DNA from: Sphaerochaeta halotolerans | GTDB lineage: Bacteria; Spirochaetota; Spirochaetia; Sphaerochaetales; Sphaerochaetaceae | DNA: 64,000 nt | Assembly (NCBI RefSeq): GCF_003429665.1 | Contig: NZ_QUWK01000010.1 | Coordinates: forward strand, 1 to 64,000 | Direction of reading: 5' to 3' | Shown: positions 7,764 through 47,717 of the stretch, piece by piece | Layout of the letters: every line of letters begins with the position of its first letter | Numbering within the stretch: the stretch's first letter is position 1 | The notes under the pieces: generated by a model | Databases searched by the model: none | Told to the model about the DNA's origin: nothing | Seen by the model: only the letters and a program-made list of their open reading frames with translations | Program-made: the position numbers and the translations under genes

Positions 7764-8625
7764 TCAGTCATAACGTTCTGATTCAGATACCTGGAAAGAC
7801 ACAGTGAAGAGGGAATCGTCATTCTCGAATAACGGAGTGCAGTCATGGAAATTGCGGTATATATACCCCTTGAACCTGTTGACGGACTCCCCACTATATG
7901 TGATACCACCAATTTCTGCGATATCATCAGGATACTGGGGAATGAAAGGTATCAATACCTCAGGGCAAGCCCTGGACTCAGGAGGCGTTGTCTCCTTTTC
8001 CGCCCCAAGGGACGGGGTATCTCACCTTGCTTTCCCGGCACTCGCTCCAGAGAGGAAGCATCATGCTGATTCCTTTCCTCTCGCTCCGTTGGGGAATGAA
8101 TTTCTTCAAGTTCAGCGTGTACTTGCTATCCATGGTACTGCTACTTTTAATCTCATAGGGGATAAACTTCCTCAAGAACCCCCTGTAGTTCCTGAAAAAG
8201 TACAGCTGGTCGCTCTTGTCTGCATTGTAGCGCGCTTTAACCGCCTCCATAACAATCATATTCTCAAAAAGATTGCTCATGAGAGGGTCCCGATTCATCT
8301 GGGCAGGAGTGCTGATGCCGAGAAGATGTGCAGCAAACCCGACATCACAGAAATAGATCTTTGGGGTCTTGAAGATTTGGCTTGTGCGGGAGGTGGACCA
8401 GGGCCTGAGGATATATGCCAGATCCGATGCCTCAAGAATGGAAAGCCAGGAACCTATTGTCGTGCTACTGACACCGACAACGCCACTCAAGGCCGAGTTG
8501 TTGACCAACTGGCCACACCTCCCACCGACGCAACATCCCGCTCCACGTAAGTGGTAAGGTAGCTCCAATAGTTGTCGGATAGGCACGAATCCAGAGACCA
8601 ATTGTTGATTGCGGTCCAAGACAAC
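7764..8625 (-). pseudogene. DUF4143 (COG1373-type) ATPase, C-terminal part, frameshifted and split by a repeat
   Basis: Three pieces of one gene can be read on the minus strand. First, at about 8600-8545, SDNYWSYLTTYVERDV in one frame is the motif before DUF4143. Next, after a frameshift, come GQLVNNSALSGVVGVSSTTI, WLSILEASDLAYIL, KTPKIYFCDVGFAAHLLGIS and IPYEIKSSSTMDSKYTL, the body of DUF4143. The repeat unit at 7941-8099 then interrupts the gene within KKFIPQ. The third piece, at 7955-7764, resumes with FIPQYPDDIAEIGGITYSGE and ends at a stop. Joining at the shared TTCATTCCCC restores one frame. The N-terminal AAA domain is missing. These proteins are usually stand-alone ATPases, sometimes toxin-antitoxin linked. 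The gene is non-functional. Confidence 0.75.
7941..8099 (+). repeat. Interspersed hairpin-rich repeat, copy 1 (inserted in a gene)
   Basis: This copy of about 159 bases is bounded by AATGA on both sides. It contains the small hairpins described for the family (AGGGCAAGCCCT-like, GGAGGC/GTCTCC, CCCC/GGGG, GAGAGGAA/TTTCCTCTC). It is about 95% identical by eye to copies 2 and 3. It splits the DUF4143 pseudogene: the same sequence TTCATTCCCC lies at both junctions, and the gene's frame resumes exactly after the repeat. Length without one boundary copy is 154 bases, which shifts the frame by one. Confidence 0.85.
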
Positions 8626-8829
8626 TTTCATACATACGGAGATATCAAGTGTTGGTCCAAATCTCCGTAATACTAGTAAAAAGCAATTGTTCTATTACGA
8701 ACCTAAGGAGTTTCTTTCTAACGAATCCAGAAACAGTTTCGTTGGCACCATGCAGCACTACCACTGAATCCGAAACATTCTGTTTTGAATCTTGTCGCCC
8801 TTAATACCACGTTATGTCAGATTACAAAA

Positions 8830-24970: not shown

Positions 24971-25000
24971 GGGGGAGCTGTTACAGGTTCCCTCTTTTTT
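24971..25000 (+). terminator. Terminator after the beta-barrel gene
   Basis: GGGGGAGC and GTTCCCTC can pair (with G-T pairs) and are followed by six T. It abuts repeat copy 2. Confidence 0.7.
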
Positions 25001-25158
25001 CATTCCCCAACGGAGCGAGAGGAAAGGAATCAGCATGATGGTTCCTCTCCCGAGCGAGTGCCGGGAAAGCAAGGTGAGATACCCCGTCCCTTGGGGCGGA
25101 AAAGGAGGCAACGCCTCCTGAGTCCAGGGCTTGCCCTAGGGTATTGATACCTTTCATT
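25000..25158 (-). repeat. Interspersed hairpin-rich repeat, copy 2
   Basis: This full-length copy of 159 bases, in minus orientation, is bounded by TCATT on both sides. It contains all the small hairpins of the family in perfect form (AGGGCAAGCCCT, GGAGGCGTTGCCTCC, CCCGG...CGGG, GAGAGGAA...TTTCCTCTC). It lies directly after the terminator of the beta-barrel gene. Confidence 0.85.
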
Positions 25159-29186: not shown

Positions 29187-29344
29187 TCATTTCCCAACGG
29201 AGCGAGAGGAAAGGAATCAGCAGGAAAGTTCCTCTCCCGAGAGAGTGCCGGGAAAGCAAGGTGAGATACCCCGTCCCTTGGGGCGGAAAAGGAGGCAACG
29301 CCTCCTGAGTCCATTGCTTGCCTGGGGTATTGATACCTTTCATT
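29187..29344 (-). repeat. Interspersed hairpin-rich repeat, copy 3
   Basis: This 158-base copy, in minus orientation, is bounded by TCATT on both sides. It is about 95% identical by eye to copies 1 and 2. The AGGGCAAGCCCT hairpin is eroded, and the part opposite GATTCC differs, but GGAGGCGTTGCCTCC and the GAGAGGAA/TTTCCTCTC pairing are intact. Confidence 0.85.
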
Positions 29345-47570: not shown

Positions 47571-47717
47571 AATGAAAGGTATCAATACCCTTGGACTCAG
47601 GAGGCGTTGCCTCCTTTTTCACTCAAGGGACGGGGTGTCTCACTTTACTTTCCAGGAACTCGCTCGAAAGAGGAACCATCATGCTGATTCCTTTCCTCTC
47701 ACTCCGTTGGGAAATGA
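47571..47717 (+). repeat. Interspersed hairpin-rich repeat, copy 4 (diverged, shorter)
   Basis: This 147-base copy in plus orientation is bounded by AATGA. It is the most diverged copy: the AGGGCAAGCCCT segment is deleted (about 12 bases) and the CCCC/GGGG and CCCGG/CGGG pairings are lost, while GGAGGCGTTGCCTCC and AGAGGAA/TTTCCTCT are kept. Confidence 0.85.

Follow-up and report, generated by a model that had tools for sequence, protein, structure and literature searches.

The bcr1 repeats of the Bacillus cereus group are structured, mobile sequences of about 155 nt with a constant flanking pentamer. The repeat that we describe here from Sphaerochaeta has another pentamer and another host. 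Palindrome-associated transposable elements (PATEs) of Haloquadratum, which are related to IS605-type transposons, offer a further comparison (PMC3119063). Like PATEs, the repeat has no inverted terminal repeats, carries palindromes close to its ends, makes no target duplication, is too short for a transposase gene and reaches a high copy number (PMC3119063). As in PATEs, internal (core) deletions occur between short repeats, and the palindromes serve as landing sites for other mobile elements (PMC3119063); in our case this is an IS110-family element found inside a hairpin in genome G087.

Within the IS200/IS605 group, IS608 and ISDra2 use the lagging-strand template for both excision and insertion; a target tetranucleotide flanks their LE and a similar tetranucleotide ends their RE (PMC6006769). 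The repeat has in common with this group a target tetranucleotide at one end, a similar tetranucleotide that ends the element, structured ends and a lagging-strand bias. In contrast to this group, it carries neither tnpA nor tnpB, it consists as a whole of two folded domains, and no guide tetranucleotides were identified in it. REP and REPIN sequences with their RAYT proteins are, like the repeat, short, abundant, mostly non-coding, hairpin-rich and probably dependent, for movement in trans, on a Y1 protein that the host genome encodes once (PMC8266576, PMC6006769); RAYT co-occurs with the repeat. Nevertheless, the REP layout (a palindrome of 20-50 nt headed by a conserved tetranucleotide, usually GTAG, and often close to the RAYT gene) is not seen in the repeat, which has no GTAG-headed hairpin pair, is absent from the flanks of RAYT genes, inserts exactly into TNAT targets and forms a branched structure of 154 nt.

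The window, that is the whole 64,000-nucleotide stretch of Sphaerochaeta halotolerans DNA analysed here, contains four copies of the repeat. A sequence-only reading had placed them at 7941-8099 (+), 25000-25158 (-), 29187-29344 (-) and 47571-47717 (+), and we confirm these coordinates; the element and target boundaries that we now assign are given in Table 1. Copies 1-3 are 92-96% identical to one another and 82-85% identical to the shorter copy 4, close to the earlier estimate of three copies at about 95% and one diverged and shorter. AATGA stands on either side of all four copies (read in the family orientation chosen in that reading), inverted terminal repeats are absent from all four, and no ORF lies within the 154 nt, so that the repeat has no coding capacity, again as had been proposed. 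A minus-strand ORF of 217 aa (7978-8631) terminates inside copy 1, so that this copy is situated either inside a gene or at its end.

Table 1. Copies, target sites and folded domains of the repeat in the window.
Feature	Position	Strand	Description	Basis
Copy 1 of element	7942..8095	+	154 nt, ATGA-AAGG...GGGGA in the family orientation of the sequence-only reading; the complementary strand is the acting one	Boundary rule from empty sites
Copy 1 target tetranucleotide	8096..8099	+	ATGA, probably pre-existing (TCAT on acting strand)	Analogy with empty sites
Copy 1 domain A (end with own ATGA)	7946..8028	+	Closing stem AAGGT/ACCTT, inner stem ATACC(C)/GGGGTAT, junction of three hairpins	Structure and covariation
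Copy 1 domain B	8032..8096	+	Closing stem TTCCC/GGGAA, conserved CACTCGCTC and CTCGCTCCGTT sides, terminal hairpin	Structure and covariation
Copy 2 of element	25004..25157	-	154 nt; target at 25000-25003	
Copy 3 of element	29191..29343	-	153 nt; target at 29187-29190	
Copy 4 of element	47572..47713	+	142 nt, without the AGGGCAAGCCCT hairpin; target at 47714-47717	

The family is much larger than the four copies to which it had first been assigned. Across the S. halotolerans genome (G000; 2.93 Mb in 49 contigs, 99.99% complete), a conserved 19-nt end pattern has 85 matches compared to none for the reversed control, so that element copies are present far beyond chance. The other end of the element gave 67 matches, and paired ends are exactly 157 nt apart in 57 out of 66 cases. 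The number of copies in this genome is thus at least 85. Rfam covariance models (including HEARO, IS605-associated and group II models) gave no match in the window at gathering score, and the sole match at E<=5 is chance-level and lies outside the element. With this copy number, no Rfam match and no coding capacity, the similarity is that of neither an already named family nor a protein.

Matches to the repeat were found in 18 of the 100 relatives searched; these 18 carriers include members of further genera and families within Spirochaetia, and exact matches to a core 30-mer occur in Sphaerochaeta MAGs. A covariance model detects the family in 7 of 297 genomes sampled across the phylum, with high copy number in G000, G056, G080 (48 candidate copies in a 97% complete genome) and G337. 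Copies inside one genome are often 88-95% alike, and the sequences suggest repeated activity of the element in several lineages. Plasmid and phage collections contained no copy, and viral contigs gave no match to the exact 30-nt end pattern. Three viral contigs match a 20-nt hairpin pattern; the element is absent from them beyond about 20 nt (best model match E 0.015) and we rejected them.

The sequence-only reading gave AATGA/TCATT as the boundary on both sides. Empty sites and end statistics show that the two flanks are not equivalent: one is the element's own and the other is the target. For example, the copy on contig C47 of S. halotolerans has an orthologous empty site in G019, where a single AACGA pentamer replaces the two AATGA around the 154-nt unit (filled, GACAGTCA-AATGA-element-AATGAAGAAAC; empty, GACAGTCA-AACGA-AGAAAA). 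Copies whose right pentamer is other than AATGA are informative for the target side. Locus L161 (right pentamer AATCA) has empty sites in seven relatives that read ..CCAA-TATCA.., the empty site of L166 (also AATCA) reads AATCA in G009, and the G009 counterpart of L015 (right AATAA), an IS605-type tnpA homologue without the insertion, has AATAT by visual comparison. These empty sites fit the right pentamer and not the left one, so the right pentamer is the pre-existing target, and the left AATGA is carried by the element.

The statistics of 135 copies from nine genomes show the same polarity: the left end is AATGA in 106 of them, and the right end is AATGA in 61, AATAA in 33 and AATCA in 27. 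Both sides can vary by lineage, with AATGA on the left in 9/11 copies and AATAA on the right in 11/11 in G080, and AATAA at both ends in G337. Because the first left base is more variable than the first right base, the target is best read as the tetranucleotide TNAT followed by T, on the complement of the earlier orientation, with an exact cut that is ambiguous by one base. A target-site duplication in the classical sense is absent: a pre-existing target (AATNA) is found on one side only, and AATGA travels with the element.

This result bears on whether the repeat could be a cut-and-paste MITE with target-site duplication, as the similar pentamers on both sides of many copies might suggest. 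The terminal sequences, AATGAAAGG.. and ..GTTGGGGAATGA, are not inverted forms of one another, so there are no terminal inverted repeats; the left and right pentamers differ systematically, and the empty sites fit the right one only. Empty sites and end statistics refute a target-site duplication for the copies tested, and we find the MITE explanation barely credible. At L114 (G000:C47:1-2000), a copy of the repeat interrupts an IS605-type tnpA (843-1190), which is undisturbed in G009 (L087).

Copies of the repeat in S. halotolerans are strongly co-oriented within contigs. Since the genome is in contigs, we used GC skew as a proxy for replication direction, and found that orientation agrees with the contig skew in 68 out of 84 copies (Fisher p = 1.7e-8). 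With repeats masked, the agreement is 52/64 in this genome (p = 7e-7) and 51/71 in eight other genomes pooled (p = 3.4e-4); taken singly, G080, G056 and G029 show no significant bias. The orientation of a copy has no relation to the gene on either flank (p = 1.0 and 0.38), and of the 25 copies that lie between two genes of the opposite strand, 20 still follow the skew rule. Gene direction, then, does not explain the orientation of the copies. From the direction of the bias, the strand reading TNAT-TCCCC...TTTCAT is the lagging-strand template by the GC-skew proxy. The same strand is marked as acting by the empty sites, so that two independent lines agree, and it is the complement of the family orientation chosen earlier.

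Both ends of the element have a conserved secondary structure, organised in two domains, with the closing stem of domain B (TTCCC/GGGAA) located at the element tip. In a structure alignment of 44 diverse copies, 94.5% of the cells are paired and 19 of the 48 pairs show two-sided (compensatory) change. Cells with two-sided change number 84, compared to a mean of 17.5 after shuffling (none of 500 shuffles was as high), and sliding the partners reduces pairing to 41-52%. Compensatory changes include CCGCCCC/GGGGCGG to CCGCGGC/GCCGCGG, and TTCCC/GGGAA to TTCTC/GAGAA and TTGCC/GGCAA. A GU-wobble test of the folding strand weakly favours the acting strand (61 vs 43 cells). The small hairpins described in the sequence-only reading are therefore real, as covariation across species confirms, but they do not form a simple chain: they are parts of the two larger folded domains.

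A structure of this strength could equally form in RNA, and the repeat might then be a conserved regulatory RNA or terminator that was copied by recombination rather than by transposition. Against this stand the exact insertions at a short target, presence and absence between close species, and an orientation that follows replication direction and is unrelated to adjacent genes; nor did orthologous loci show conserved position and transcription direction. We regard this explanation as very unlikely. The related suggestion of an interspersed RNA is unsupported, since both the bias towards one replication strand and the polarity of the target point to an element that acts as single-stranded DNA.

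We propose that the repeat is very probably a non-autonomous, trans-mobilised single-strand DNA transposon of the IS200/IS605 (HUH/Y1) type, comparable to the haloarchaeal PATEs. The earlier suggestion of a trans-mobilised structured element that is neither a classical MITE nor an IS is supported by the exact insertions, the covarying stems, the lack of an ORF and of inverted repeats, the presence in many species and the replication-strand bias. On the acting strand, the arrangement would be target TNAT^T-CCCC...domain B...domain A...CCTTTCAT^. A Y1 transposase acting in trans would recognise both folded domains on the single-stranded lagging-strand template, and would cut the left end after TNAT and the right end after the element's own TCAT. 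The element would then be joined to a new TNAT target in the lagging-strand template, without target duplication. We infer the enzyme class, the single-strand intermediate and the mobilisation in trans; intact Y1 proteins are encoded in the S. halotolerans genome.

The search for an autonomous parent returned no transposase-bearing element with the same two ends: no tnpA was seen between the ends of any copy, and none of the Y1 genes has flanking copies of the repeat that would serve as its ends. The sole long insert between both ends, of 1.6 kb on contig C10 of G087, was considered as a parent and rejected. It is an IS110-family element (380 aa, NF033542 195 bits; L067, G087:C10:4200-6966, at 1037-2744) that landed in the CCCC/GGGG hairpin of a copy, and therefore a passenger. 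IS110 relatives are known to insert into REP hairpins.

Truncated copies require a separate account. In S. halotolerans, B-end truncations exceed A-end truncations by about 9 to 1. Copies that keep the own-AATGA end and have lost the B end are found at C3:33594, C7:15415, C11:226555, C12:3384 and C20:65624, with further B-end-truncated copies at C20:133001, C20:237894, C38:53830 and C46:99557; the lone opposite truncation, with the A end lost, is at C48:120769. Such a surplus is not predicted by the Y1 model. It is explained in part by the truncated copies L175 and L178, where loss of flanking sequence and apparent microhomology look like local deletions.

The one-sided truncations (about nine copies without the B end and one without the A end) led us to consider reverse transcription, in which case the repeat would derive from a retro-element or a group II intron and would insert through a target-primed reaction. 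This is disfavoured, because no RVT_1 match is found in the 99.99% complete S. halotolerans genome; G011, G013, G015 and G025 gave none either. The two truncated copies just described are apparent deletions, and Y1 transposition agrees with both the target polarity and the bias to the lagging strand. A reverse-transcribed origin is accordingly highly improbable.

As a putative Y1 transposon, the repeat is set apart from PATEs by its phylum and sequence, by the lack of any related full-length transposon found with its ends, by a branched domain A fold that is kept by compensatory changes across families, and by an element end and target that vary by lineage (G080, G337). Domain A is also more elaborate than the end hairpins of IS608, which are 20-25 nt long (PMC6006769). 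With IS200/IS605 elements that carry a transposase, it has in common the TTCAT terminus and, in part, a hairpin motif, but no full match.

Next, we compared the Y1 proteins that could act on the repeat. S. halotolerans encodes an intact IS200 TnpA at C4:75442-75855 (115 bits to Y1_Tnp), an intact dprA-linked RAYT at C16:10001-10810 (TnpA_REP-like, about 270 aa), as well as additional Y1 genes that belong to another IS group. The RAYT has intact HUH and Tyr motifs and weak C-terminal HTH_23/HTH_28 matches. Its gene lies directly 3′ of a dprA-type gene (L111, G000:C16:8500-12000, at 1502-2314), a position kept in related species. In G000 only, the RAYT stop codon is followed by a weak GGTAT..ATACCTTT hairpin.

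The mobiliser may be this resident RAYT with its C-terminal HTH rather than the IS200 TnpA, a plausible but uncertain reading that would make the element an analogue of REP/REPIN without the GTAG hairpin layout. RAYT homologues (E<=1e-15) are found in 14 of 18 repeat carriers compared to 9 of 82 other genomes (Fisher 4e-8) and, within the genus, in 9/10 carriers compared to 4/16 others (p = 0.004), whereas IS200-like TnpA shows no association (7/18 vs 19/82, p = 0.23). RAYT is also the sole Y1 family found in G001, G013, G017 and G025, its HUH and Tyr motifs are intact, and its weak C-terminal HTH is as in subclass 2.1 (PMC6006769). Nonetheless, the tree shows that the co-occurrence within the genus is largely that of one clade, and the overall association, due in part to that clade carrying both, is phylogenetically confounded. 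G080 has no RAYT match despite its many candidate copies, G004, G016, G020 and G024 have RAYT and no repeat, and no copy of the repeat adjoins a RAYT gene.

Alternatively, the mobiliser could be an IS200-group TnpA, for example the intact protein encoded on C4, with the element descended from such an IS by gene loss; this too is quite possible, if doubtful. IS200 right ends (G000:C4, G015:C101, G081:C2, G044:C60) read ..TTCAT(T) after a hairpin, as in the repeat, and a GATACCCCGC..CTTG.. hairpin similar to one in domain A is present in some of them. The left end of the C4 element gives a marginal covariance-model match (E 0.013). However, there is no full end-to-end similarity between IS200 elements, whose boundaries were assigned by eye, and the repeat, and IS200 TnpA does not co-occur with the repeat across genomes.

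HTH-tailed RAYTs form subclass 2.1, and no REP-like sequences were found near their genes (PMC6006769). We put forward, as a tentative idea, that the repeat family might be the natural mobile substrate of an HTH-tailed RAYT (subclass 2.1 / group 1), which would spread, in place of a simple REP hairpin, a single-strand element that is large and branched and whose target preference shifts between lineages. The substrate of HTH-tailed RAYTs, here conserved beside dprA, is a long-open question that thereby becomes testable. The repeat, very probably a single-strand mini-transposon, adds to spirochaetes a high-copy, structure-conserved element of this kind whose target and fold vary naturally across families, and its paired ends and targets can help to establish how structure and sequence are recognised by Y1 enzymes.

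Finally, the family contains several structural variants. Short forms of 112-118 nt are without the domain B hairpin, and extra hairpin modules are present at L068, L069, L070 and L071 (G087, G061) and at L434-L436 and L429 (G337), for example AGGCTCTTAGAGCCT between the two domains and GGCTTACC/GGTAAGC-type modules in domain A. Copies with such extra modules indicate that the element gains and loses whole hairpins. At L055 (G056:C92, 1500-2053), at least three full copies and one partial copy form a head-to-tail tandem array, in which adjacent copies have a single target tetranucleotide in common at each junction.
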